A stretch of 64,000 nt of DNA. Source: Parietichytrium sp. I65-24A (Eukaryota > Sar > Bigyra > Thraustochytrida > Thraustochytriidae). Position numbers and translations under genes: made by a program. Shown piece after piece: positions 12,869 to 37,153 of the stretch; position 1 is the stretch's first letter; each line of letters begins with the position of its first letter. The notes under the pieces were generated by a model. It saw nothing but the letters and a program-made list of their open reading frames with translations, ran no database searches and was not told where the DNA came from. The stretch lies in assembly GCA_012862575.1 (NCBI GenBank), contig BLSF01000009.1, positions 124,001 to 188,000 of the forward strand, given 5' to 3'.

Positions 12869-13106
12869 TAAAGTGCCTCCCAAGTAACTCAAGTGGCGGG
12901 CACTATTGTCCTCATCCACTGCCCAGTGCGCAGGTGGGGTGAGAAAAGTCTGCGGTGCGACGTCTGGGCGGGATTATCGTTTTAAAGCGCGGAGCGCACG
13001 AACACGTGTTGAGTTCTCTATTCCATCGCGGCCTTCACGTTGTGGTCTTTACGGAGTGGTGGGTGTGTCAGTCTTCACTTGGAGATATTTCCACAAAGAG
13101 CCAAAG

Positions 13107-15137
13107 ATGGACTCGGTACGCGAAATGGTCGCTGGTTGCAGCTCGGCGGGCCGCCTGGCCAGTGAGTTCTGGTTGGCTGGGGTGGAGGACAAAGGTATGC
13201 GAAGACGAGCATGGCTGCAATTTGCGTGTGTGGTAGGTCTGCAGGTGGCCAGAGCGCGAGTTGCCACGGAAGCTTCGGAGGCGACGAGGGCGGTCATGAC
13301 AGCGGCTGGGAGGCTGTCCTCGAAGACGGAAGGATATGCAGGGCTGAATTCGGCGTTGTTGAAGAGACTAGGACTTCTTGGCGTGAGTGCGATGCTGGAG
13401 ATGGCCTACGAGGCGGCGTTGAGGAGGCTCAGGCAGAGGTGGTCGAGATTTATGACCAAGAAGCTACTCAGGGGATATCTCAAGCTGTGCACGCGGGAGA
13501 CCGCACAAGTAGGAGTCGGTGAAGAGGGCGCCGAAGATGAGAAGACAAAGCTGGATCAGCACCTCGCAGAAGATGTTGACAAGTATGTGGACCTCTGCCT
13601 CGATCTTGGACTAGAGGTGCTTCAGGCAGGGATACACTTGTACTTTTTCGCAAAAATGCTGTGGCGCATGTCGCCGCAGCTCTCGCAGTCGACTGTGATG
13701 CTCGCTGGGGTCGGAACTATTGGCACCTTATTTTTGGGACGCAGGCTCCCGGCATTGTACGATAAAGAGCGCGTTGCCTCCAATAATATGCGGTACGCTC
13801 TTACCCGAGTCCGCGAGAACGCCGAGTCAATTGCGTTTTACAACGGCGAAGATAACGAACTACGAGCGATCAAAGGCCTTCACGCCACAAAGCAGCTTGC
13901 CGTATGGCGGAGAAAGCAGTGCAGAGACTTGGTTGGCATTGCAAGTGCCACTTTTCGCAAGGTCACCGGGTTTGTTCCATTGCTTATGCTGACACAGAAC
14001 GAAGACTCGTGTCAGGCGAGCGACAACTGCGATGGTGGTCATGATCACTCGCATGCGCATTCACACTCGCATTCACACGCAGCACATGGTCACAGCCATA
14101 CTGGCGCAATACATGTTGATGAAGAAGCTATGTCCGATAGACTCGCGATGGTGATGCAAGCATCGGAGGCATTCGACGAGATACTATTCCACCTCATGAT
14201 TATCGCCGAGGTAAGTTTGGCATGATTTTCTTTGCCGTGCAGGCGTCTTCTTTTCCTGACTTTTCAATCGGTTGTTGCACTTTTCCACCCCTTTTTGTTG
14301 TTGAATGCTCAGAACTTGAACGACTTTGCGCGGCTCAAGACCGTCTCCGAACAGTTGGAGATGATGAATGAAAGAATTAAGAGTATTGAGCAGCAGCAGA
14401 TCGAGGATTCCAAAGGCGACGCGAGCGAGGACGACTCGCGAATTCGGCTTCTCGAGAATGACCAGAGCGACGGGGACATCGAGGACGGTTCGCCTTGGCT
14501 TTCGATCCGCGACTTGAATATCGTATGTGGAAATGAGACGCTTCTAACGAGCCTCACGCTGGACCTCGTTCCTGGCTGTCGTCTACTGGTAACAGGTGAG
14601 TCTGGTGTCGGAAAAACCACCTTGTTACGCGCCATCCAAGGGCTCTTCAGGCAAGGGAGTGGCACGATTTACAGGCCTCCAGCCAAGGATATTGTCTTCA
14701 TCCCGCAGCAGCCGTACATGACGCTAGGCACACTGCGCGATCAGCTTCTGTACCCCACCCCTCGCGAAGAGATCGACAACTCCCGCGATAGGGAGCTCAT
14801 GGACGTATTGGAGCTCGTGGGCCTCAAATCGGTGCTAAGCCGATCCGAAGACGGCTTGGACACGTCCGCGAGATGGTCAGAGCAACTGAGCACCGGCGAG
14901 CAGCAGCGACTTGCGTTCGCTCGCATAATCCTGCTCAAGCCGAGCCGTCCGTTCGTATTTCTTGACGAAGCCACGTCCGCATGTGACTCGACCAGCGAAA
15001 CCAAGATGTACAAGTTACTCGGGGCCAGCTGCTCCAGCTGGGTAAGCGTTGGGCACCGCGCTTCCATCGAGCGCTTCCACGACCAGCGGCTCGTTCTTCA
15101 CAAGGGCGGTTCATGGACACTCGAGCCGCTCCCGTGA
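13107..15137 (+). CDS. ABC half-transporter, SbmA/BacA-ABCD-like, with His-rich loop (2 exons)
   Basis: Spliced CDS join(13107..14210,14313..15137), 642 residues. The 102-nt intron has a GTAAGT donor and CTCAG acceptor at a codon boundary. The N-terminal half has hydrophobic segments and the family signature NNMRYALTRVRENAESIAFY, shared by bacterial BacA/YddA and eukaryotic peroxisomal/lysosomal ABCD proteins. A loop at residues ~308-335 is packed with His (HDHSHAHSHSHSHAAHGHSH), unusual for this family and reminiscent of metal transporters. The ATPase domain is intact: Walker A GESGVGKTT near 463, signature LSTGEQQR near 560 and Walker B FVFLDEAT near 582. It would act as a dimer. The substrate is unknown; this superfamily includes fatty acyl-CoA, peptide and cobalamin carriers. 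Confidence 0.85.
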
Positions 15138-20075: not shown

Positions 20076-20975
20076 TTAAAGCTTGGAAGAAGGAGTTCCG
20101 GCGGTGTATCTAGCCTGTGCGCGGAAGAGCAGGCGTGGGTTGTTGCCATACCCTCCGAGGGAGCGATGCATGACCTGGATGTTGTCCCAGAGGAGGATAT
20201 CCCCCTCCTCGTATTTGTGCTCGTAGGTGTACCCAGCCTTGACGATTCTGTCCCACATGTCGTCGTTGGAGATCCAGTGCTTGCCCTCCTTCTCGTCGTA
20301 GAGACCCTTCGGCGTGAATGGAAGGTACAAGCAGTCCATGCCGTTGTAAGGATGCTTGCGAACGCAAGGAAGGGTCACGTCTGGGAGCATGTCCTCAGGC
20401 TTTGCATTCTTAAAGTCGCTGATCCACTTGCAAGAGACTAAGGTGGTGGAGTTGCGGAGCTTGTTCACGGTGGCCTGGTCCAAGTTTTCGGCCAGCGCAA
20501 GGCTTGAGTCCATGAATCCGGTGTTTCCGCCGACGGGAGGGATGACCTTGGCGTGCAGGAGGTTGACGAGCTGGTAGCCTGGGACCCCCCAAAAGTTACC
20601 GTCGTGATGCCAGTACTCGGCAGCGTTGACACCAGGCTTGACCTTGCCGTCCAGAGTGATGTTTCCAATGCGAACAATCTCAGGATGTTCAGGGACGCGG
20701 TTCTCGAAGGAGAACGCAGCTGGCAACAGAGTTGGCTGGCCAATCTTGGAGGCAAGCTTCTTCATCTGCTCTGGGCTCAAGTCTTGCTTTTTAACGCAGA
20801 TGATGCCATGCTTGAAAATCTTGTCCACAACTTGGCGCTTGAACTCTTCGTCGCTCAGGCTCAGAATGCACTTGCCGCCGAGGTCCACGCTCTCGAAGCG
20901 GTTGTGCAGTTTGCCGCCCTCCGGCACCGGGAGGACCATGGCGTTGTTCGGCTGTGGCTGTGCGTTGGCAGACAT
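20076..20975 (-). CDS. TauD/TfdA-family 2-oxoglutarate dioxygenase with PTS1 (candidate xanthine dioxygenase)
   Basis: 299 residues, intronless. Fe(II) ligands are visible as H123-x-D125 (AEYWHHDGNFWG) and H270 (IQVMHRS), with the 2-oxoglutarate Arg at R285 (RLLFRAQ), spaced as in E. coli TauD (His255/Arg270). The C-terminus is TPSSKL, a textbook SKL peroxisomal signal. TauD-family enzymes hydroxylate varied small acids; fungal XanA of this superfamily turns xanthine into urate. Its position beside guanine deaminase, urate hydroxylase and HIU hydrolase genes, with no xanthine dehydrogenase in the window, makes xanthine the best guess, but substrate residues cannot be read from sequence alone. 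Taurine or another sulfonate/carboxylate substrate remains possible. Confidence 0.85.
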   Translation of the reverse strand: MSANAQPQPNNAMVLPVPEGGKLHNRFESVDLGGKCILSLSDEEFKRQVVDKIFKHGIICVKKQDLSPEQMKKLASKIGQPTLLPAAFSFENRVPEHPEIVRIGNITLDGKVKPGVNAAEYWHHDGNFWGVPGYQLVNLLHAKVIPPVGGNTGFMDSSLALAENLDQATVNKLRNSTTLVSCKWISDFKNAKPEDMLPDVTLPCVRKHPYNGMDCLYLPFTPKGLYDEKEGKHWISNDDMWDRIVKAGYTYEHKYEEGDILLWDNIQVMHRSLGGYGNNPRLLFRAQARYTAGTPSSKL

Positions 20976-23420: not shown

Positions 23421-25191
23421 AAGAACTCAGAACTGAGATCTCAGAAGTGAAAATGGCTGAGGAAAGCTTCACTTTCTTCCACCAGAGCCTCCACTGACAC
23501 GTCCGAAAAAAGCACCAGAGCTTTCGTGAGGCCCTGGCCTCGGTTTCATTGATAGATCAATGGATGGACCTTGCATCCCCCAGAGTCTTGACCCTTCTGG
23601 GAGCAGCTGCCCTGCTACTCGAGTACTCAGCACAGTACCTTCGTCGCTTCATGAGCGGGCTTTATTATTATTATTATCAGTACAAAACAATTTTTCTTTT
23701 CAAAACAAAAGGAAATGCTCCACTTTTTTGTAGTTCCAACGAAAATGAGAATGCGAAATGCGAATGTGAATGTGAATGAACACTTGTGCACATTGGAATT
23801 CGCGCTTCATCGCGTTTCATCTGTCTTCTTTGTGTTACTTGTTTTATCCGACAAACGGTGGCGCTGCTGCAGGCGCTGGCCCGGCCGAGGCGGAATGACA
23901 AACTGAAGCGAGAAGCGAGAAACGCCAGCTCGCTGTGCTGGCAAGTAGCTTCGCGACCTTCCTTAAGTTGGGGCCTTCGGGACCCGCGTGTCAACTTATG
24001 TCCACTTGGCGGAAGCCAGTCACCAGTGCAAGGACTCAGAATCGATCGGCTGCGAAGAGAAACGAGTTGGTCGAAACGGGGCTCTTCGCGAAAGGAATGA
24101 ATGCACAAAGGAAGGAAGGAAGAAGACACAGGAAGGAGAGAGGGGAAGAATGCGCGGGTCCGTCAAAATTCGAAAATTCGAGAAACTTTTCATCCTAGAA
24201 AGACGACGAGGAAGGCGTAGGAGGAAAGGAGAGAAACAGAAAAAAGAGAGTGAGAAGAGGGAAGAGGGAAGAAGGAGACGAGCGGGAAGAAGGAAGGGAG
24301 GAAGGGAGGGAAGCGAATAGAGTTTAGGTAACTGCAAGTACGCACACCAAGCCACCAAGCGGTGTCATCATACCGCTGGCTAACTTACCGCAAAAGGTCG
24401 CAGGCTAGGAGCAAGGAGCGAGGGGCAGTGAGTGAGAGTCAGTCGTGCGCTAGTGCAGGCAAGAAGTGGGGTAGTCCAACCCTCTAAGGCAACGCTCGAT
24501 CATTGCAGCTCGGAGGACTGCATGGATTAGGGAGACTTCCATTCACACGAGCAAAAGTCAAGGACTGCCTGCGCCTTGGAAGCCTTTCAAGACACGCTCC
24601 AGAGCCCCTTTCGAGTGCGCCGATCAAACGACCGCTGCGAGACAGCAAGACAAGCGCCTCTGACCTACGCGGAGTAGTGGTGATACCAAGGTGGATAGGA
24701 GTCGGAGACTCTGTGACCTGGACAAGAAGACAAGTCAGCGAAGCGCACAACCTGGAGGAGCCTTCATTCCCCAAAACCAAAAAGTCAAGCACAGAAATCC
24801 ATCCATCTTCTATCTATACCCGGGTGGCTTGTTTCACTTGACGCCGACCTAGCAGACCCCATTTGACCCAGTCTCCGGCTTGATAACTCTCGCTGGTCAG
24901 AAGCTCTCGCAGTTTTTTCTCGGTGCTTGATTCCTCCCCTTTTCGTTTTACTCCAGTGAATTGCTCAACTTGCAGCCCTTGCACATACTCTGCTCAAGCA
25001 CGTTTTGCATTCACCACACCAAGCTTACTCGCACATACCATTTGAATCTCTGGAAGCCCTGCCTCCAAGACCTCAAGAGCTCGAGCCGGCCGACAAGCCA
25101 GCATATCTTTCTTCTGAACCTCTGCCTCAACAGCGACAACTTGCTGTACACAGCGTATTTCCAACTAGATTCCTCAGCATCACAACTCGCA

Positions 25192-26604
25192 ATGCAAAGC
25201 AACACATCCAACGGGCCAGTTTCGACTGCTGTCAGTCCCCCAACAGCAAACGCCAACAGCGTCAAGCCCGCAACAACCAAGATGACCCTTGTAGAAGAGA
25301 TCAGCCTCGCGGCGAACGAGAGTCTGAAGCACCTCGCCGAGATCAGCGACAAAGCTGAGAGCGAGCTGCACCATGTAGACGACGACGGCAAAGTCGAAGA
25401 TGATGATGAGGCCGAGAACGACGTCAAGCGCCTCGAACTCGCAAAGACCATGATCATGGAGGTGGCATGCGCCTCCGCACTCACCGGAGTCACACTCAAG
25501 CACGGTGGCCCATTTGGCGCTTGCGTTGTCCGCAACGGAATCTTCATTTCCGTAGCTCACAACACCGTGCTCATGGACGAAGACCCGACTTGCCATGCTG
25601 AGATGAACGCGATCCGCTACGCGTGCGCGGCACTCAACACTCATGACCTTTCCGACTGCGAGCTCTTCACCACCTGCGAGCCGTGCCCGATGTGCCTCGG
25701 CGCTTGCTCGTGGTCTCGCATCCGCAAGATCCACACTGGTGTTGACAGATACACCGCAGCGGACTTTGGCTTCGATGACAAGGTCTTCTACGACGAGCTC
25801 CACGCTCACAGCGGTGAGTGGGCGGTTACCTCTTCCAAGACCAAGTCTGCGAAGGTGCGCCTCGGCCAGACCATGCCAAACGTCCAGCCATCCATGCTTA
25901 ACATGTACTGGGGTATCGAGAAGGAACTCGTGTATGGCCTGCTCAACGACCAGAACATCAACCGCACCTATCGCCGCCGCTTGGGCGAGAAATCCGTGGG
26001 CTTTCACGGCGACCCATCCCGCTTCGGCCCTGACATCCGCGCAGAACCAGGTGCCAGCGAAGCCAACCCCGACGACTCCGAAGGCGACGACTCCTCCAAC
26101 ACTGTGAGTCCACCAGAATCTCCAAAATACATGAAGATTCTCAAGGAGGCCATCGTCGAAGCTTGCGAGAATGGCTGGAACAAGGAGCGCGAGGTTTTCG
26201 CCTCCCTCATTGTGGACCGCGACGGAAACGTCATTTCCATCGCCGTCAACGAAGTCCTTATGCGCCGCGATGCCACTGCCACCAGTGAGGTCCTCGCAAT
26301 CCGCAAGGCAGCTAAGAAGCTCGGCACCTACTGCCTGGAGGGCTGCTCCATGTACTCCACCGTGGAGCCTTGCGTCATGTCTCTTGGTTCCATCCTCTGG
26401 GCTCGCCTCGACAACCTGTATTATGGCCTCTCCCAGAATGCTGCAGCTCGCTACGGTTTCGAGGAGGGCTTGCTCCACTACCGCGAGCTTTTCGCCGACC
26501 CTGAGATGTCCCGGCAATTTGTCGATACCGAGACCCGCGTGGGCTTCGACGCCTGCGAGAACGTCTTCAAGAAATGGCAAGTTGTCAATGGCATCATCTA
26601 CTAA
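25192..26604 (+). CDS. Tandem cytidine/guanine deaminase-family protein (guanine-deaminase-like, second domain degenerate)
   Basis: 470 residues. Domain 1 (about 80-210) has intact zinc sites: H135-A-E137 in CHAEMNAIR and C165/C168 in CEPCPMCLGA. The following FGFDDKVFYDEL matches the tail of Bacillus-type guanine deaminase (AGFDD..IY), which turns guanine into xanthine. Domain 2 (about 312-470) keeps the fold (EVLAIRKAAKKLG, TVEPCVMSLGSILWAR, YGFEEGLLHYREL), but the His-Ala-Glu is Thr-Ser-Glu (364-366) and the second Cys is Ser397, so it should not bind zinc normally. The paired architecture recalls deaminases with a catalytic and a structural half. No peroxisomal signal is seen, so it is probably cytosolic. 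ATG 25192 is the first in a frame open from 24961. Confidence 0.85.
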   Translation: MQSNTSNGPVSTAVSPPTANANSVKPATTKMTLVEEISLAANESLKHLAEISDKAESELHHVDDDGKVEDDDEAENDVKRLELAKTMIMEVACASALTGVTLKHGGPFGACVVRNGIFISVAHNTVLMDEDPTCHAEMNAIRYACAALNTHDLSDCELFTTCEPCPMCLGACSWSRIRKIHTGVDRYTAADFGFDDKVFYDELHAHSGEWAVTSSKTKSAKVRLGQTMPNVQPSMLNMYWGIEKELVYGLLNDQNINRTYRRRLGEKSVGFHGDPSRFGPDIRAEPGASEANPDDSEGDDSSNTVSPPESPKYMKILKEAIVEACENGWNKEREVFASLIVDRDGNVISIAVNEVLMRRDATATSEVLAIRKAAKKLGTYCLEGCSMYSTVEPCVMSLGSILWARLDNLYYGLSQNAAARYGFEEGLLHYRELFADPEMSRQFVDTETRVGFDACENVFKKWQVVNGIIY

Positions 26605-27006
26605 ACAACCTTCTGTACATAATTTATACCCCGCTTTTTCTAAACCATTCATTCCCTCCATAAACCAAACTCTTTTTCTTTTCGTTTCTTCCCTCTGCAA
26701 AACGAAAACACGATTTCGACCCTCGGCGATGCCATTCTTCCCTTCACTTTCGTTCGTCTTCATGGTTTTGCTCTTTTGACTGACTGTGAAAGAGACACAC
26801 TTAGCTAAATGTTTTGTCCCGTGTCAATACACTACTACCGTGTGGGTACTGTGAGATGTATGAAACTCGAGTTGTTTGTTTGTTGTGTTTGTTGCGAGAA
26901 GCAGGAGGAGAGCGGCAGACCCCAAACTGCGGCAGACCACACGCGTGTCGTCACTTTGCCGCAAACGGAGAACGCCTGGCGCGTGGTTCGAGTTTGTTTC
27001 TTTTCC
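26605..27006. other. Intergenic region, deaminase to HIU hydrolase
   Basis: 402 bp between two same-strand purine genes. The frame leading into HIU hydrolase is open from 26809 but without ATG before 27007. TGACTGTGAA at 26781 resembles the recurrent 11-mer. Confidence 0.4.
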
Positions 27007-27450
27007 ATGACTGAGCGCGTCTCGCGAGTCGCAAGTCATCTCCGCGCAGCACAGGGCCAGTCGGAGCAGAAGCAGAAGCAGGAGAAAGCGAAGACCATGT
27101 CCAGTCCGATCACCACGCACATTCTCAACACGGCCACGGGCAAGCCAGCGGCTGGAGTGGCGCTGAGGCTCTCGCGCAAGACGGGGCAGGCTGAGAACGG
27201 TGAATTCCAGTGGGAGACGGTCGCGGAGGCAGTGACGAACTCGGACGGCAGGGTTGCTGGTCTCCTAAGCCACGCCCTGGAGGCAGGGCAGGTTTACGAG
27301 ATGTACTTTGACACTGCGTCGTATTTCGAGGGCGCCAAGTGCTTCTACCCTTACGTCAAGATTGTCTTCGAGATTGAGGATCCGAGCAGCCACTATCACG
27401 TACCGCTCCTCATTTCCCCGTACGGATACAGCACATACCGCGGCTCGTGA
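27007..27450 (+). CDS. 5-hydroxyisourate hydrolase (transthyretin-like) with PTS2
   Basis: 147 residues. The core starts SSPITTHILNTATGKPAAGV and ends in the invariant YRGS tetrapeptide of HIU hydrolases; the catalytic His of the THILNT block, the HYHVPLLISPYGYSTYRGS end and a central Arg (LRLSRK) are all present. The enzyme opens 5-hydroxyisourate, the product of urate oxidation, to OHCU. I start at ATG 27007 because it adds RVSRVASHL, an exact R-V-x5-H-L PTS2, matching PTS2-bearing animal and plant HIU hydrolases; the internal ATG at 27097 would remove it. It is convergent with the urate hydroxylase, 302 bp apart. Confidence 0.93.
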   Translation: MTERVSRVASHLRAAQGQSEQKQKQEKAKTMSSPITTHILNTATGKPAAGVALRLSRKTGQAENGEFQWETVAEAVTNSDGRVAGLLSHALEAGQVYEMYFDTASYFEGAKCFYPYVKIVFEIEDPSSHYHVPLLISPYGYSTYRGS

Positions 27451-27752: not shown

Positions 27753-28970
27753 TTACAAGCGTGGTGGCCATGGACCTTGCAACAGGTTTGCTGTGATGCC
27801 GTTCAAAATATTTTGACCGATATCCTTGGAGGTTGTGAGCTCCTTGTACCACTTGTTGGTTTCCTTCCACTCTTCATCATTGGTGGGGTAAATTGTGGCG
27901 GTGCGTTCGCGCGCCTTGAGCACCATGGTGTGAACACGGCTCTTGCGGTGCTGGGCGTAGCGTTCGAGAGCGTCCTGAACACTGATGTTTGTGGTGGTGA
28001 GGAATGAGGAGAGGACTTCACTGTCCTCGAGAGCCTGGCAGCCACCTTGGCCGAGCGTTGGAGTTGTGGCATGCGCTGCGTCTCCGATTAGCACGACGCG
28101 GCCATTGAAGTAAGATGGGAGTGGGTCGATGTCGCAGATTGGGATACGGTTGAGCTTGGTCACGTCGATTGCGTTAATGAGGTTTTGCACCTGCTCTGGC
28201 CATCCTTTGAAGATTTGCTTCAGTTCAGTGCGCATAGCTTCGGTAGCGCGTTCCGGGACAGGGTCGTCCTCCTTTAAAGGTGCTCCCATGAAGAAGTAGA
28301 ATCGGTTGTCCGCCACGGGCATGACAGACGCGCGCTTTCCCTCGCCGACGTACATGATCCACTCGGTTGGGTCTCCGACGGCTGGAGTCATTGGAATCAG
28401 GCCGTTCCAGTTCGTGTAGTGGTACACGACTGGAACTTCCTTCTGAAGCACATAATCTCGCACGTTTGACTTGATGCCGTCAGCGCCAACAAGCAAGTCG
28501 CATGTCATAGACTTGGAGCCATCATCAAAGACTGCGCGAACTTTGCTGTCTGGGTTGGAAGGATCGACCTTCTCCACGCCAACGCAGACGCGGCCAAGGG
28601 TGAGCTTGCCTCCTGCCTCAACGTATTTGTCCATCAGCAGCCTCTGAAGGTCTGCGCGCGACACCGGGTACGCGCGCTCGCCAACGGTCTTGTATACTGG
28701 GTCAAGGTCCATGGACACCATGTTGGCTCCGTTGCTTCCCTTGTACGTCATTGTGTTCATTTGCCCTCCAAGGCGTCTGACCTCCTTCCCGAGCCCGAGG
28801 CGATTGAGAACTTTGACTCCATTGCTCCAGACCGAGATCGCGGCTCCCACAGGCAAAATATCCGTGGCACGCTCGTACACGTGCGTGTTGTAGCCCTCCT
28901 TCTTCAGGAACAGCCCGAGGCTCAGCCCCGCGATGCCGCCGCCAATGATCACCACGTCCAAGTCGAACAT
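27753..28970 (-). CDS. FAD-dependent urate hydroxylase, HpxO type
   Basis: 405 residues, class A flavoprotein monooxygenase. The FAD Rossmann motif VVIIGGGIAGLSLG begins at residue 6; GDAAHATTPTLGQGGCQALED (from 296) is the second FAD motif. Beyond the general fold it carries blocks specific to Klebsiella HpxO: VGAAISVWSNGVK, TNWNGL, VGEGKRASVMPV, RFYFF and VLKARER. The two HpxO catalytic residues, Arg204 and Tyr216, correspond by spacing to R213 and Y225 here. HpxO converts urate to 5-hydroxyisourate with NADH and O2, replacing the cofactor-free uricase and avoiding H2O2. The C-terminal PRL is a weak PTS1. It faces the HIU hydrolase, whose substrate it would make. Confidence 0.92.
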   Translation of the reverse strand: MFDLDVVIIGGGIAGLSLGLFLKKEGYNTHVYERATDILPVGAAISVWSNGVKVLNRLGLGKEVRRLGGQMNTMTYKGSNGANMVSMDLDPVYKTVGERAYPVSRADLQRLLMDKYVEAGGKLTLGRVCVGVEKVDPSNPDSKVRAVFDDGSKSMTCDLLVGADGIKSNVRDYVLQKEVPVVYHYTNWNGLIPMTPAVGDPTEWIMYVGEGKRASVMPVADNRFYFFMGAPLKEDDPVPERATEAMRTELKQIFKGWPEQVQNLINAIDVTKLNRIPICDIDPLPSYFNGRVVLIGDAAHATTPTLGQGGCQALEDSEVLSSFLTTTNISVQDALERYAQHRKSRVHTMVLKARERTATIYPTNDEEWKETNKWYKELTTSKDIGQNILNGITANLLQGPWPPRL

Positions 28971-29346: not shown

Positions 29347-32076
29347 AAATGAACAACGCAGCAACGCAACAATGGCCAATGGCCATTGACAGTGCACGAG
29401 CGCAAAGAATGCTCCTCGACGAACCGAGGAGGAGCGAGGAACGCGAGGAACGGGCCCGGCAAGGAGGGTGTGGGTTCCAGCGACTGCCAAAAGAACTGGC
29501 GCGAAACCTGAAACTTGACACCCGAATTCTGAAACCTGAGACACCTGAGACACCTGAGATACCTGAGACGACGGAATTGATTCACAGTCAATCTATTCGA
29601 ACCAACAAGACCAACCCAACGACGCAGTCGCGCATAACCTGAGATCCTGCATTCCAGAACGCTTAATTATTTATTCACTCATTGATTAAGCTTATTTATG
29701 TATTTATTTTTGAGTTTAAATGAAATGAATAATTGAAGAATACATTGATCTTGATTCAAAAAAAGCTGCATTCCGGGGGCTAAATTGAACAGCAAGGATA
29801 AAGGATGGCGCGAATACGCGACTCCCTTGACGCGCGGTATGCACGAGACATCGGAAACAGCTCGGGGCATGGCCATGGCGGAGACACTTTGCATCCTTGG
29901 CAATCCGTGGGGAAAGAAGCTTACAATTCATCACTTGTTCATCGAGTTAGTCAACGCCGCACAGTGGAAAAAAATCTTTCTTCCCTCTTTCCCGTCTACA
30001 CTTGCCCGGGAGGAGAAAGAGGAAGAAAAGGAGGAGGTGGAGGTGGAGGAGGAGGAAGAAGGTGGACGGCATAGCGGCCACTTGATGATCATTAGTGTAT
30101 GCAAATGCCGACTTGTTGGAGGAAAAGGCCATTCTCGGCCTCCTGAAAGTACCCTCTCACTTGGTGGAAACGATGAGACTTGGAAAATGGCGAGCCGGCA
30201 GGTACTATTGATGTGGTTATATAGGCTTACGATGCGACAGCATTGGGAAACGACTGCTCGTAGATGCGCGTCGGGGAAATCTCCCTGGATCACTACCATA
30301 TCAACTAGCTGCTACTAAATCTTGCACCCCGGTGCAAGCTGCTCTGACGGTACCAAGTTTCGTTTGGCGCTGGCTTCTACCTTCTCCCACCTTCTCCTGG
30401 GACTACTCCGTCGAGTATTTACAAATAGGCCTTTCTTGACCCCTTCCCTTCCCGGATCCTTTTCCTCATCCTGTACATTTCGCTCCTTAGGTTAGGAGGA
30501 GGTAGGAGTGCCCGGAAGGAGGAAGGAGTACTGGTGGTCTCAAAGTGGCCTACCTAGTATTCGTGAGTAGTGACTGGAACCCACCGCGAAAACCGAGGTG
30601 GGCCAGACAGAGAGGGGAACCTTACAGAGCCTACGGAGAAGGACTAGGTGATGGAGATGATGGAGTATCATGGGACTCGTGAAATTCCGAGTTCCGTTTA
30701 CTCGACGAGTATTTATAAAAGAAATACATTGTGTTCACGCTCGCTGTGAAGAGAGTCACTCTGGACTTGAGATAAACAATAGATTCAGAATTGAGAACAC
30801 AGAAGAGAAGCGAGGGAGCGGTTGTGGACCACGCGGGAGTGCAAGTACCACCTGATGACGAGCAGCCAATGACGCGCGTAAGACCAAGTGCTCATCATCA
30901 AAAGAAGTGAAACCCTCTAAAGTACATTCTAAAGCTGCTCGAAGATTGGGTTCTCTCAAGCAACGATTTTCGCCCTTCCCCCTCTCCGCACTTCACAGAT
31001 CTTCACAGTCTGTGCAAGTCGAAGGTACCAGTACTGACTGACAGCACAACGCAATACAGACTGTGCGAATTCTATCTAACGTCTTTGGTATTAGTACCGA
31101 GTGATCGCCCAGTTGGTCGCGTGCTTTTGCAGCGGTCCCAATATGTTCAAACTTTCAAATCTTCCCTCGTTGCACCTGTCCGCACGTTTTGGTGCAACGA
31201 GACTAAGAGTCGGTGTACTAGTATCACAGAACTCGGATTTGAAAATCAGAATTCAGAAAGTCCATTTATTTTCCACTTCTTTTTCGTTCATTGATGGAAC
31301 ATTATATATTCTGAAGTGCTGACTGATAGTGCTATAAATGTGCAAAAGCCCGAGGCCATGGAAATCCATGGAACTCCATTGCAGTCATCACTGAAGAGAA
31401 GAAATTGGAAGGACTATAGTCGATTGTGAGAGGAGAGATAGAGAAATATTTCCCATGACCGTGATGGAAGATATCGTCGAAGGAAAAAAGGAAACGAAGA
31501 CGCACGTGACTCACCACGCCAGGAAGGGCAACTCCACATTTCTCTCTCTCTCTCTCTCCCTGCTCCATTGTCTCCGCTTTTCTCGCGTCTTAATTGTCTC
31601 TTTCGACACTTGCTTCTTTCTCCCTCTCCTCTCCCCTCCACCTTTTTAAGTTTCGGTAGTATTCAGTAGTAGACAATACGCACCCCCGCGATCCTTGCAC
31701 CCAACTGCCGCCCAATGCCCTCCCCCTCGTCGGCACCATGCCAATACGGACTACACTTTGCGCTAGCACGACCTTAAATCGGGCATCCAGTTTCTCCGAA
31801 AAAGAGCGGTTCTTCGTTCCTCGACGGAAGAGCTCTTTGTTCTCTAGGAAGGATCAAAGGGCTCGAAAACTAGGAGCCAATGTAGTCATCTATGCACAGA
31901 GTAGGAACGAAGAAAGAGATGGCCTAAGAGCTCTAGTAGCCCTTGAGTGTGTGATAATAGCGAGGTAGCATGGGCAGATAGTACTAGCGAGCTCGGGGCA
32001 GTCGTAGCGAGGGCAGTAGGTAGAGCTAATACAATCATTTCTTTCACGACTTTCACTTTAGATTGTGGAAGACGAA

Positions 32077-32139
32077 GACAGACACAGACACAGACAAAGA
32101 CAAGAGAGACAGAGACAGAGACAGAGACAGAGACAGACA
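32077..32139. repeat. AGACAG microsatellite
   Basis: Interrupted ACAGACAC/AGACAG hexamer run about 240 bp upstream of the fusion gene ATG, in its probable leader. Confidence 0.9.
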
Positions 32140-32374
32140 AGAAGACGGCAGAAGAGCAGACAAGAATTGCATAGGCAACGGAATAGACAAGCAAAGAAAG
32201 AGTGAGCGGCCAGCGGCGCGGTTGACAGGTTTGGGTTTTAGCGACGGAACCGTGAGATCGCCACCGTTCAAGAAACGTGACGGAGCAGCACCGTTGCAGG
32301 AGTGACAAGTGATTTCTGGAGAGAGCTGGGTTCCAAGTCGGGCTCGAAAGGCATTTGAGGACAGACCAGGCAAG

Positions 32375-35300
32375 ATGACCAAGTTGGGAAGGCTGTATGC
32401 GGATGTGTTGCCGGAGACGGTGGCGAACGTTCTCGAGGTTGATGCCAAGATTGTGGGCACCACGGGTCTCCATCTGAGTGGTGTCATCGACAACAACCTA
32501 GAGACGCCTGAGTCTCTGGACTTTTTGGCTCAGCTGTTCGTGGAAAACGCGCCGCACTTGGCCAAAGTTCTTGCACAGAGAAGGAAAGATCGCGCTTTCC
32601 TGGATCAACGCACTAAAGCAGTGCATCAACTGAACGAGCGATTGGGCCGCAAACGCTCGGATCCATTCTATGCATCCGTCTTTGGCCAGCGCGACTCTGA
32701 CGATCGCGTTGTGTTTGGTCCAAACGACATTGACAACGTGGAATCCTACACGGCACCTCAAGGTTCAAAGGTCGCAGAGTTGCCGGACTTTTTGAAGGGC
32801 GAGCATGTCACCTTATTTGGGCTCGCAGATTCAGACAAGAGCTGCGAGGAGGCGGTCTCCTGCGCGTCTATAAAGCTTCCAAGCGAGCCGCCTGTCGTAG
32901 AAGAGCTCGTTTCAGCAAGCGGGCTCGTGCCGAAATGGGGGGTCGATGCGGAGGACTCACAGACCCCGTTAGCCAAAACATTGTCGCAAGCGAATAGAAA
33001 TCTAGCCAAGGTTTTCGAGCAGCCCGCTAAGGATTCGGATGCTTTGCCCATCAAACGATTGCCTGGTCTTGGGCTACCTTGCACATTCTGCTTTTACGAG
33101 AAGAACCCGGTCCCGTTGCACATGTACGACTTTGCCCTTCATCTATTCAAGCACTGGAAGAACCCTCGCGCGCTTGTATTCTACGTTCCTAAGCTGGAAA
33201 ATGAGGAAGAAGCCGCCTATTTGCACACGCTGATTCGTTCCGCAGAGGACAGAATTAAAGCGCTGCATCCAGAGTACCATCTTGGAACCGTGCGCGTCAT
33301 CGTCGTACTCGAGAATGCCCGAGCGCTATTCCGGGCAAACGAGATTATGGACTCTCTCTTCCCATTTTTCGCTGGCGCTTCTCTGGGATGGCATGACTTC
33401 CTAGCCTCTACCGCACGATTGTATAAGAACGACTATTCTTTTCGCATGCCACTCAAGTCCGACCCGTCCATCGTAATCAAGCACATTCGTGCTTCTCATG
33501 AGCTTGTCGCGAAGGTAGTTGGTGGGCGTGGTGGTCTTGCGATTGGCGGCATGTACGGCGTCTTGCCTTCCGGATCTAGTGACGTGTCCAGTGGCACTTT
33601 TCAAGTTACCCTCGCGGGTTTTATTAAAGACATCGTCACACAGCTTCGTCGGGGGCTCAAAGGTTTCTGGGTCGCGCGCTCCGATTTTGTGCGCGTGGGA
33701 ATCGCTGTCACTCACGCATGGAAACTTTTTGCCACAAAGTCGGATCGATCTCCACTGGAGAGCCTTATCAAGGCCCTTCTCATCGACAAAGATTTGCAAC
33801 AAACCATTATCGAGTTCGTCTTTGCCCCCGGCGGTGTGAGCAGCGGTCCAGGATTGGACGTTACGCCGGCCGAGCTGGTGGTCGCTGACTTGCCATCTGA
33901 AAACGCAAAGCTGAGCTCTCCTGATGAAATTCGCTACAATGTTTTTCAGACCCTCCAATACCTGGCTGATTGGCTCAGTGGAAACGGCTGCGTGGCCCTT
34001 CCCGGTAACGTCGGAGGCCATCCCGTGCTTATCATGGACGATCTTGCGACAGTGGAGCGTTCGCGATGGCAAGTGTGGCATGAGGTACGATACGGGCGAT
34101 GCTCTGTGGAGGATCTGATCAAAATCGTACATGAGGAGATGAACTTTATTCGCCGAGACCTTTCCAATTCGCAAAAGATCGTTCAAGTCAAGTGGGACTC
34201 TCGCACATCCACGTGGTACCCCATCGCGCTTGATATTCTTCTCAAGCTGATGACTGATCCAACACCCCCCGATTTCGTAACAGAGCTCCTCATCCCTCTT
34301 ACTGCAGAGAAGATTCGCAAGCTCGAAAATCCGCTCCACTACGTGGAGAAACTTGAACACGATGCGTGCCCACCAGCTACGCGGGATCGGTCGCGCTACA
34401 CGCTAGAGCCCTATGTCAGACGCTTCAACTACTTTTTCGAGCGGTGTGGCGAGGTGCACTTTGCGAAAAAGATGGCCGAATGCACTGCCACCGACATGCA
34501 CTTGCTAGAATCCCTGATCAAGTCGTTCGATTTGCAAGGTGTAATCGACGCAGCTAGTTTTCACGGCGATATCGGACAAAGCTCTGCCACACTCGACAAG
34601 ATGGCCAGCAAAGAGCAAGCCGCCATGTTTGACGAAGAGGAGAGTGTGAGGCAGGAGTTGCGCGCGCTTGGGAAAGAGTACTTGGAAAAGTTTGGCGTCA
34701 AGTTTCTCGTCTCCGCAAAGGGGAAAACTGGCAAGGAGATGCTTGCAATCCTTCAACGACGGATCAACAACTCCCAGGAGCAGGAGCTCACTAATGCGCG
34801 GGAGGCGCTATGGGAGATAACCGTGAAAAGGGTGCTCGACATGCCCCTTGACCGTCTCCACGATGACATCTCCAAGCTCAGAACAAAGTACAATGTTCCA
34901 GGCGCATCGGTGTGTATCAGCACACGTTATGGTTCGCGCCAGGTGGCTTGCTTTGGCGAGAGCATAATTAGTGAGGGAAAAGCACACCCCGTGGACTCTA
35001 GCACGCTCTTTGAGATTGCTTCACTGAGTAAAACGATTGCGTCCGCGTTCGCGATCGAGTACTTTACTGCAAAGGGCATTTCGATGCAAACCCCTGTCAA
35101 CGAGCTTTTGGCAAAAGCGGGCTCCGATTTCCTTTTAACCACCGACAAGCTCGGTGACAAGGTTCTTTTATGGCATCTTATTAGCCACTCGGCACTCAAC
35201 ATGCACTACGTCAATGGTGTACCGCTTGACGAAGACATGCCAAATGTACGGGAGTTCCTGGAAGGCAACGAGCGATATGGGTACGAACCAATTAAAGTTC

Positions 35301-37153
35301 TCGGAGAGCCTGGGACGTTTTTCAAATATTCCGGCGGTGGCTTTCTTGTGTTGGAGCACTTGATTGAGGCTATGGAGAAGAGCTCTATCGAAGCGGTCAC
35401 ACAAGGGTTTCTAGACAAGCTCGGAATCAGCGACGGCTTGACGTTTTCTCACAAACCATCTCCTGACAAATTCAAGGTTGCATACGGCTACGATGACGAA
35501 GGCAACCTCATCAAAGGCACGCGCAAAATGTTTCCATCCTTTGCTGCTGGCGCCCTTGGGACTCCGCAAGCCGTTCTTCACTTCCTCGAGCACCTCGGAG
35601 AAGCGTACAGAAATCCACATGGATCAGGCCCTATTTCACATGACACAGCTGTTCTCATGTTGCACGGCACGGACAAGGGGTGTAAAGATTTTATGGGCTG
35701 TATGATGGGTCTCGGCGTTTTCGTTGGAGAGGCTGGTTTGAACAAATTCACTATTCATCAGGGCGCAAACGACGGGTTTCGAGGAGTATACCTGCACTGC
35801 TTTGATGGGCCCGATCGCGGCGCAGGTCTGGTCATGTTCGCCAACTGCGACAACAGGGCGATGTTTTTCATTGCTGAGGCCATGCAAAAGATTCTCCTGG
35901 AGCTGAATGTGGAGGGCATCGACATGTCCACTTTTGGCAAGAAGTCGATTGACATTCACAACGTCAAGCAGGAGGAAATCGTAAACTTTGGATACAAAGC
36001 TTTGGTTTTCGACTCATTTCAGCCAACTTTGCCAGACGCAATCATCGACAAGGGCGTCATTGATCCGCTCGCAGAATACAACAAGATGGTCGGAGCTCAG
36101 TTGTTGCGCGTGTCCAATCAACGCTTTGCGAGAGCGACAAATCTGACCTCTCCGCACGTGCCAAAGTTTGACCCCGCGTTGTTCTGCCCGATGGGGAAAG
36201 TCATGGACAGCTGGGAGACGGCGCGCCATAACGAGCAGGGGAAAGATGTTGTGATCTTCCAGCTTGCCAAACCGGCCAAAATCTTTTACGTCTCTTTCTC
36301 CACAAAATACCACTTTGGTAATCAGGCAGAACACGTCCAGTTGGAAGGGTATTGTGACGGCGCGCCTGCCAATGAGTGGCAACTTTTGGTTCCCAAGGTG
36401 TACCTTGATGGACATGCCGAGCTTCGGGTACAGGTGACTTTGCCCGGATTGCAAGACAAGCTCTTCAGTCAAGTTAAAATCACAATGTTTCCTGACGGAG
36501 GGTTGAGCCGTGTGAGCCTCTTTGACGATCAGCTACCTCACATACACGCGTCTACCTTTCAGCCCGCAGAGTCTGCCCAATGTGTCAAATCAATTGACCC
36601 AATTCCAGCGACGAAGAAGCCACTGCAGCTTCTTTACTTGCCCACTGAAGCCGAGGTGGAGGCGAACCTTGGCAAGATCAAGTCGGGCGACCTCTTCGAT
36701 GCATCCAGTCTTGCGTACGGAGGCGAGCTCGTCTCGTGCACCAACCAGCACTACGGTCCCGCTGGTCAGGTCTTGTCTCCGTACATCCCGCTGAGCATGC
36801 ATGATGGATTTGAGTCGGCCCGCAGCAGGGCTGCCAACCACCATGAGGAGCTAGTCTTCAAGCTCAAGCTCCCGAGCCGCCTCCAGCGCATTGAAATGGA
36901 CTTTTTGTTTTTCGTGAACAATAATCCCCGCGAGGTGGAGATTCAGTGCACGACCACCGCTGGTGGACCGGAAAAGTGGGTCCCGCTCGTGAAGAAAACC
37001 CTGGTGAAACCGTTTGCCGGAAACATCAAGTCCTTTCCTATTAGTTTGCCTGAGACTGTGTCTTCTTTGAAGCTCTTAGTCCACCCGGACGGCGGGGTGA
37101 ACCGCTTCCGCGCATATGGGTGGAGAGACGCTCCGCCGCAATCTTCTCTTTAG
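32375..37153 (+). CDS. Four-domain fusion: malate synthase-like, OHCU decarboxylase, serine hydrolase (beta-lactamase fold), allantoicase
   Basis: 1592 residues in one uninterrupted frame. (1) About 1-660: malate synthase-like barrel; metal ligand candidates E313 (VVLENAR) and D341 (GWHDFLAS), catalytic-base candidate D556 in MDDLATVERSRWQVW, and the WLSGNGCV block. (2) About 670-825: OHCU decarboxylase; H730 in FHGDIG, E747 in MASKEQ, and EKFGVKFLVSAKGKTGKEML. (3) About 825-1200: class C beta-lactamase-like serine hydrolase; S883-L-S-K886, KYSGGGF (984) and HQGANDGFRG (1128). (4) About 1240-1590: two allantoicase repeats, with MDSWETARHN, FPDGGLSRV and HPDGGVNRFRAYG. The C-terminal SSL is a weak PTS1. 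Predicted jobs: OHCU to allantoin, allantoate to ureidoglycolate plus urea, glyoxylate plus acetyl-CoA to malate; the serine hydrolase step is unknown. ATG 32375 is the first in frame. Confidence 0.88.
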   Translation: MTKLGRLYADVLPETVANVLEVDAKIVGTTGLHLSGVIDNNLETPESLDFLAQLFVENAPHLAKVLAQRRKDRAFLDQRTKAVHQLNERLGRKRSDPFYASVFGQRDSDDRVVFGPNDIDNVESYTAPQGSKVAELPDFLKGEHVTLFGLADSDKSCEEAVSCASIKLPSEPPVVEELVSASGLVPKWGVDAEDSQTPLAKTLSQANRNLAKVFEQPAKDSDALPIKRLPGLGLPCTFCFYEKNPVPLHMYDFALHLFKHWKNPRALVFYVPKLENEEEAAYLHTLIRSAEDRIKALHPEYHLGTVRVIVVLENARALFRANEIMDSLFPFFAGASLGWHDFLASTARLYKNDYSFRMPLKSDPSIVIKHIRASHELVAKVVGGRGGLAIGGMYGVLPSGSSDVSSGTFQVTLAGFIKDIVTQLRRGLKGFWVARSDFVRVGIAVTHAWKLFATKSDRSPLESLIKALLIDKDLQQTIIEFVFAPGGVSSGPGLDVTPAELVVADLPSENAKLSSPDEIRYNVFQTLQYLADWLSGNGCVALPGNVGGHPVLIMDDLATVERSRWQVWHEVRYGRCSVEDLIKIVHEEMNFIRRDLSNSQKIVQVKWDSRTSTWYPIALDILLKLMTDPTPPDFVTELLIPLTAEKIRKLENPLHYVEKLEHDACPPATRDRSRYTLEPYVRRFNYFFERCGEVHFAKKMAECTATDMHLLESLIKSFDLQGVIDAASFHGDIGQSSATLDKMASKEQAAMFDEEESVRQELRALGKEYLEKFGVKFLVSAKGKTGKEMLAILQRRINNSQEQELTNAREALWEITVKRVLDMPLDRLHDDISKLRTKYNVPGASVCISTRYGSRQVACFGESIISEGKAHPVDSSTLFEIASLSKTIASAFAIEYFTAKGISMQTPVNELLAKAGSDFLLTTDKLGDKVLLWHLISHSALNMHYVNGVPLDEDMPNVREFLEGNERYGYEPIKVLGEPGTFFKYSGGGFLVLEHLIEAMEKSSIEAVTQGFLDKLGISDGLTFSHKPSPDKFKVAYGYDDEGNLIKGTRKMFPSFAAGALGTPQAVLHFLEHLGEAYRNPHGSGPISHDTAVLMLHGTDKGCKDFMGCMMGLGVFVGEAGLNKFTIHQGANDGFRGVYLHCFDGPDRGAGLVMFANCDNRAMFFIAEAMQKILLELNVEGIDMSTFGKKSIDIHNVKQEEIVNFGYKALVFDSFQPTLPDAIIDKGVIDPLAEYNKMVGAQLLRVSNQRFARATNLTSPHVPKFDPALFCPMGKVMDSWETARHNEQGKDVVIFQLAKPAKIFYVSFSTKYHFGNQAEHVQLEGYCDGAPANEWQLLVPKVYLDGHAELRVQVTLPGLQDKLFSQVKITMFPDGGLSRVSLFDDQLPHIHASTFQPAESAQCVKSIDPIPATKKPLQLLYLPTEAEVEANLGKIKSGDLFDASSLAYGGELVSCTNQHYGPAGQVLSPYIPLSMHDGFESARSRAANHHEELVFKLKLPSRLQRIEMDFLFFVNNNPREVEIQCTTTAGGPEKWVPLVKKTLVKPFAGNIKSFPISLPETVSSLKLLVHPDGGVNRFRAYGWRDAPPQSSL

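Follow-up and report, generated by a model that had tools for sequence, protein, structure and literature searches.

In Parietichytrium sp. I65-24A, malate synthase, OHCU decarboxylase, a class C beta-lactamase/DD-peptidase-type domain and allantoicase are encoded in one open frame, and relatives of this fusion are found in bacteria. The protein is rather probably an assembly line leading from purines to malate, with the beta-lactamase-type domain acting as its allantoinase. A wider proposition has about an even chance of being correct. It holds that a protein running from OHCU to malate, with a third, serine-dependent class of allantoinase drawn from the penicillin-binding fold, has been transferred among Bdellovibrionota, a planctomycete and a eukaryote. 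The window mentioned below is the whole stretch of DNA analysed, 64,000 nucleotides long.

The fusion gene and its domains

The gene occupies positions 32375..37153 of the forward strand and encodes 1,592 aa, from the ATG at 32375 to the TAG stop at 37151-37153. Its 772-kb contig belongs to the 42.5-Mb Parietichytrium genome. The frame is already open from a GTG at 32309, and the ATG lies near the point where the bacterial homologues start. An earlier note on this DNA had described a single uninterrupted 4.8-kb frame at 32375-37153 carrying four families in a row; the frame of 1,592 codons and its coordinates were borne out, and the domain search returned the named domains in the proposed order, all above the Pfam cut-offs. 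A purine-rich simple repeat of the AGACAG type is present at 32076-32140, about 240-300 bases 5' of the start codon.

All domains lie on the forward strand. The malate synthase TIM-barrel domain is located at 33065..33727 (residues 231-451; PF01274, 56.5 bits, Pfam cut-off 26.4) and was also aligned to E. coli malate synthase A 3cuz. The malate synthase C-terminal domain MS_C at 33923..34288 (residues 517-638; PF20659, 42.1 bits, cut-off 23.1) includes the motif DDLATVE. The OHCU decarboxylase domain at 34514..34834 (residues 714-820; PF09349, 73.6 bits, cut-off 24) carries His730 and Glu747 and was also aligned to solved OHCU decarboxylases. The class C beta-lactamase/DD-peptidase-type domain at 34868..35881 (residues 832-1169; PF00144, 68.4 bits, cut-off 27) contains the motifs Ser883-x-x-Lys886, Tyr985 and His1128. 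Allantoicase repeats 1 (36092..36523; residues 1240-1383) and 2 (36719..37120; 79.9 bits) were assigned from PF03561 and the alignment to yeast allantoicase 1sg3. Allantoicase as a whole reaches 169.1 bits against a cut-off of 27, in two stretches, both repeats above the cut-off. The OHCU decarboxylase and allantoicase families named in the earlier note can therefore be detected by domain search. A sixth Pfam match, HpcH_HpaI, is under its cut-off. The C-terminal tripeptide, read from the sequence, is SSL (37142..37150), which we take to be a possible weak peroxisomal (PTS1-like) signal.

Judged from the sequence, a chance frame of such length with five family matches above curated cut-offs does not appear credible. 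The homologues align across the whole length, and the conservation of the single frame in bacteria, together with the scores of all domains above the Pfam cut-offs, argues against an accident of annotation or assembly.

Homologues in bacteria

Prokaryote genomes were scanned with an allantoicase alignment, and the best 80 of at least 571 relatives were taken. Four of these 80 loci were conspicuous, their allantoicase parts showing 42-44% identity. L016 (Bacteriovoracaceae), L017 (Bdellovibrionales) and L018 (Planctomycetia) are homologous to the fusion over nearly its whole length, and L019 (Halobacteriovorax) matches it as far as the contig end. The bacterial fusion proteins are 44-50% identical to the Parietichytrium protein, so the fusion is not unique to this genome. 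When a profile of the beta-lactamase domain was used (E <= 1e-40), relatives were found in 69 of the 368 Bdellovibrionota genomes sampled, and 51 of the 69 matches sit in open frames longer than 1,500 aa. A search for the same architecture elsewhere, advised in the earlier note, has thus located it in bacteria, and it is common in Bdellovibrionota.

The set of 64 bacterial fusion-type loci includes 60 of the 66 further genomes matched by the profile, three of the 69 having been sampled already. At 55 of the 64 loci the malate synthase, beta-lactamase and allantoicase parts are in one frame. Among the others, four are cut by the contig end, three have malate synthase in a neighbouring frame and two are unfused. 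In L171 (G011), L172 (G312) and L175 (G089), the malate synthase frame adjoins a separate beta-lactamase-allantoicase frame; this split may reflect either genuine two-gene forms or errors in the sequence. The unfused copies, L169 and L170, are two-domain beta-lactamase-allantoicase proteins, the former encoded near urate oxidase PuuD and a separate malate synthase. Positions 7126-12662 of L169 also hold two class-V aminotransferases, one of them matching aspartate-glyoxylate aminotransferase BhcA below the cut-off, a lone 179-aa allantoicase repeat and the separate malate synthase of 728 aa.

Viral contigs scanned with six short patterns from the fusion protein gave no match. On plasmids, no match spans 80% of the full-length protein; those listed (40 of 179 for the whole protein, 15 of 33 for the beta-lactamase part and 25 of 96 for the allantoicase part) are less than 30% identical.

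Gene neighbourhood in bacteria

The neighbourhoods of the 64 fusion-type loci and of 76 other allantoicase loci were compared by tblastn with set thresholds. HIU hydrolase is present at 55/64 fusion-type and 45/76 other loci, and PuuD at 53/64 and 34/76, respectively. Since both enzymes are also encoded near many other allantoicases, their presence does not by itself set the fusion apart. If the 55 one-frame loci are taken alone, HIU hydrolase is found at 53, PuuD at 50 and ureidoglycolate lyase at none. In 54 of the 55 fusion-type loci having HIU hydrolase, its gene lies less than 2 kb upstream of the malate synthase part on the same strand. Xanthine dehydrogenase occurs at 22/64 fusion-type loci.

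The two sets are distinguished by the later enzymes of the pathway. Allantoinase (AllB or PuuE) is found at 0/64 fusion-type loci vs 57/76 others (PuuE 45, AllB 12), and ureidoglycolate lyase at 1/64, the unfused L170, vs 60/76. This contrast is strong, though less so than its p value suggests, because related genomes are counted several times in the comparison of 64 with 76 loci and the Fisher test overstates their independence. Malate synthase is encoded at five of the 76 other loci, and none of the 76 has a fusion-like beta-lactamase of at least 60 bits.

The single first-pass AllB match, at L123, is a dihydropyrimidinase and was not counted as allantoinase. AllB over the cut-off was absent from all four genomes behind L016-L019, whose completeness is unstated; there the best AllB-like sequences have higher scores as dihydropyrimidinase or dihydroorotase. 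The bacterial searches for PuuE and ureidoglycolate lyase covered the loci and 1.59 of about 2.83 Mb of genome G321; this part of G321 gave no match to AllB, PuuE, ureidoglycolate lyase or a free-standing OHCU decarboxylase, and it encodes an ordinary malate synthase A as a protein of its own.

Residue conservation and structure models

Three parts of the fusion score far under their NCBIfam equivalog cut-offs: 94 bits vs 594.5 for malate synthase A (TIGR01344), 168.9 vs 277.9 for allantoicase (TIGR02961) and 75.2 vs 139.4 for the OHCU decarboxylase equivalog domain (TIGR03180). The score of 45 bits for class C beta-lactamase NF033085, vs a cut-off of 415, places the domain outside that group. 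The 18 NCBIfam models that match the fusion at E <= 0.001 include neither AllB (TIGR03178) nor PuuE (TIGR03212); by sequence, the beta-lactamase-type domain belongs to neither. Membership in the PF00144 superfamily follows from the score, the fold, the SxxK motif, the Tyr and the third motif.

Two structure models of parts of the fusion have mean pLDDT values of 92.9 and 88.6. They match structures of allantoicase, of DD-peptidase, AmpC and D-amino acid amidase, and of malate synthase A; the malate synthase model resembles 3cv2_B (TM 0.85 by target length). OHCU decarboxylase is absent among the 50 matches listed for its model, which are occupied by malate synthases.

Conservation was assessed in 56 aligned rows, the Parietichytrium copy and 55 bacterial frames with lengths of 1,250 aa or more, nine shorter frames being omitted. 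Malate synthase E313, D341 and D556, OHCU decarboxylase H730 and E747 and, in the beta-lactamase-type domain, S883, K886, Y985 and H1128 are kept in 56/56 rows, and malate synthase R228 in 55/55 rows having a letter there. We presume that all these residues are catalytic, D556 serving as the base. The OHCU decarboxylase catalytic His is followed by Gly731 instead of the usual Pro in 56/56 rows. The His-Gln-Gly motif of the beta-lactamase-type domain is likewise invariant in the 56 sequences.

The beta-lactamase-type domain might be structural or off-pathway, with allantoinase encoded elsewhere by a family outside those searched. The PF00144 family is large, the Parietichytrium genome alone having five further matches above 100 bits, and the substrate of the domain is deduced indirectly, which would agree with such a role. 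This explanation is nevertheless rather unlikely, as the Ser-x-x-Lys, Tyr and His-Gln-Gly motifs do not vary, the fusion to allantoicase persists without malate synthase and OHCU decarboxylase in L169 and L170, and the 76 other allantoicase loci gave no such relative of at least 60 bits. Another beta-lactamase-type domain of the Parietichytrium genome is found inside a 1,489-aa open frame (C33:88163-89443).

Likely purine genes of Parietichytrium

Likely purine genes are located within about 12.5 kb upstream of the fusion. The 5-hydroxyisourate hydrolase at 26809..27450 on the forward strand (TIGR02962, 123.2 bits, cut-off 87.45; PF00576) is the only such match found in the genome. An FAD-dependent urate hydroxylase of the HpxO type is encoded at 27753..28970 on the reverse strand; it scores 476.5 bits with NF033623, just under the cut-off of 500, matches 3rp6 with 277.3 bits and ends in PRL. 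The two-domain deaminase frame at 24961..26604 on the forward strand, whose start codon is provisional, matches PF00383 in two stretches, and guanine deaminase 1wkq is its best solved relative (109.9 bits). A TauD-family dioxygenase at 20076..20975 on the reverse strand (PF02668, 98.6 bits) ends in SKL, and its best solved relatives are taurine-type dioxygenases. As a guess, it is a candidate xanthine hydroxylase because of its gene position and the missing xanthine dehydrogenase. The upstream cluster reads as a route from guanine through xanthine, urate and HIU to OHCU, which would be passed to the fusion; the places of xanthine dehydrogenase and classical uricase appear to be taken by the TauD dioxygenase and the HpxO-type flavoenzyme. 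Near the cluster, positions 12906-15137 hold ABC transporter frames of the ABC_membrane_2 family, some members of which are peroxisomal.

The Parietichytrium genome was searched exon by exon, so that absence is not proof; in these searches, no match was obtained for the xanthine dehydrogenase molybdopterin domain PF02738, uricase PF01014, PuuE or ureidoglycolate lyase, and none over the cut-off for AllB. The AllB-search match on contig C4 is closest to N-acetylglucosamine-6-phosphate deacetylase. An 889-aa frame (L009 408-3077, contig C110) has weak similarity to allantoinase/dihydroorotase in two pieces (49.1 bits) and a long insert rich in serine. Inspection by eye shows no His-x-His metal motif in it, and it is maybe a dead amidohydrolase. 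The only OHCU decarboxylase match is that of the fusion. One allantoicase is over the cut-off, and another weak match on contig C53 is below it. A malate synthase G of 758 aa (L011 83-2359, contig C26) ends in SSKL, from which it is probably peroxisomal. Given this separate G-type enzyme, the fusion, whose copy is of the A type, provides an additional malate synthase.

Proposed pathway from purines to malate

OHCU would be supplied to the fusion by the HIU hydrolase and the urate oxidase or hydroxylase encoded nearby, and would be converted into allantoin by the OHCU decarboxylase domain. The hydantoin ring of allantoin, a cyclic amide, would then be opened via serine catalysis by the beta-lactamase-type domain, which would replace allantoinase. 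The allantoicase domain would convert allantoate into ureidoglycolate and urea and would probably also produce glyoxylate from ureidoglycolate. Malate would be formed from glyoxylate and acetyl-CoA by the malate synthase domain. All four activities are predictions, most of all the allantoinase role and the conversion of ureidoglycolate; the beta-lactamase-type domain is most likely an unrecognised serine allantoinase.

The earlier note had suggested that the ureide pathway is coupled to the assimilation of glyoxylate, and the genes around the fusion, in the window as well as in bacteria, agree with this. The pathway roles given there to three of the domains are kept as predictions. The domain that it called a beta-lactamase-fold hydrolase probably performs the missing allantoinase step and would then not be unrelated to the pathway.

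No domain of the fusion is dedicated to the ureidoglycolate step. It may be performed by the allantoicase domain; ureidoglycolate is called an allantoicase substrate in a title cited by PMC3646786. Non-enzymatic decay of ureidoglycolate is also possible. Alternatively, the beta-lactamase-type domain could itself carry out this step as a hydrolase, while allantoin is opened by a separate unrecognised enzyme. Such a role would fit the near-equal rarity of lyase and allantoinase at fusion-type loci (1/64 vs 0/64) and the failure to find the lyase in the Parietichytrium genome as well. However, the usual ureidoglycolate lyase reaction is an elimination and involves no hydrolysis, whereas the fold hydrolyses cyclic and open amides, judging by the DD-peptidase, AmpC and D-amino acid amidase structures that it matches. 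Furthermore, the beta-lactamase-allantoicase protein of L170 adjoins a separate ureidoglycolate lyase of 131.5 bits; at this one locus, the domain need not be the lyase, and its company with allantoicase even in the presence of the lyase favours allantoinase. A ureidoglycolate hydrolase is accordingly judged unlikely.

Origin of the eukaryotic copy

Bacterial copies vary widely, and that of the planctomycete is placed among them in both trees. The Parietichytrium copy is also nested among the bacterial ones in the two trees, though support is modest (93/91 with L134 and L149; 80 with L141 in the long-frame tree), and a tree keeping 37 bacterial rows apart from Parietichytrium and two split copies was not rejected (p-AU 0.276). 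The distribution makes a bacterial donor likely, and transfer from Bdellovibrionota into the eukaryote is the simplest reading.

The eukaryotic gene could be a decaying copy in which the frame is kept and the malate synthase is dead. R435 and S436, at positions presumably near the acetyl-CoA end, are found only in the Parietichytrium copy, the other 55 rows having H and P, and its end branch in the long-frame tree is long (1.3). Decay is nonetheless very unlikely: 1,592 codons have stayed open, identity to the bacterial copies is about 50%, the core catalytic residues are kept, and the genome searches found neither a second OHCU decarboxylase nor a second allantoicase over the cut-off.

Comparison with known systems

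If the beta-lactamase-type domain is an allantoinase, a pathway gap would be filled in many Bdellovibrionota, a long-known step would acquire new chemistry, and the fusion would become a test system for the channelling of unstable OHCU and toxic glyoxylate. Some Bdellovibrionota prey on other bacteria, whose purines would offer them an ample source.

Fused enzymes of purine breakdown are known, and none reported to run from OHCU to central carbon was found in open-licence PubMed Central papers. In that literature, as far as its available text goes (PMC6320678, PMC9244630, PMC3646786 and PMC8919083 among it), the four-domain architecture has no description, in agreement with the earlier note, which had regarded it as undescribed. 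The pathway fusions described in the available text join neighbouring steps and two kinds of enzymes, with other partners and without malate synthase. In the DAL cluster of yeast, DAL7 malate synthase is tied to glyoxylate from allantoin breakdown; the DAL genes, unlike the fusion, are separate and include ordinary allantoinase and ureidoglycolate hydrolase (PMC3646786). For the zebrafish malate synthase-like protein Mlsl, formation of peroxisomal malate from purine-derived glyoxylate was proposed as possible, and Mlsl is a separate protein, unlike the fused malate synthase (PMC8919083).

The bacterial allantoicase-OHCU decarboxylase fusion NF010371 (PRK13797) shares two domains with the Parietichytrium protein, which scores 135.6 bits, far below the 814-bit cut-off. 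Its order is the reverse, with allantoicase first (about 23-340) and OHCU decarboxylase last (437-514 of 521), and a model of 521 positions is too short to include malate synthase or beta-lactamase parts as well.

Class C beta-lactamases, R61 DD-peptidase and D-amino acid amidase have the fold and the Ser-x-x-Lys/Tyr/third-motif pattern in common with the fusion domain. Unlike these enzymes, the latter has conserved stretches of its own, HxALNxHYVxG and HQGANDGFR, and is fused to allantoicase; it also has YSG at the position of their YxN. The allantoinases AllB and PuuE catalyse the same step as that proposed for the beta-lactamase-type domain. The fold of AllB is of the amidohydrolase type and that of PuuE of the polysaccharide-deacetylase type, both unrelated to the beta-lactamase-type fold.
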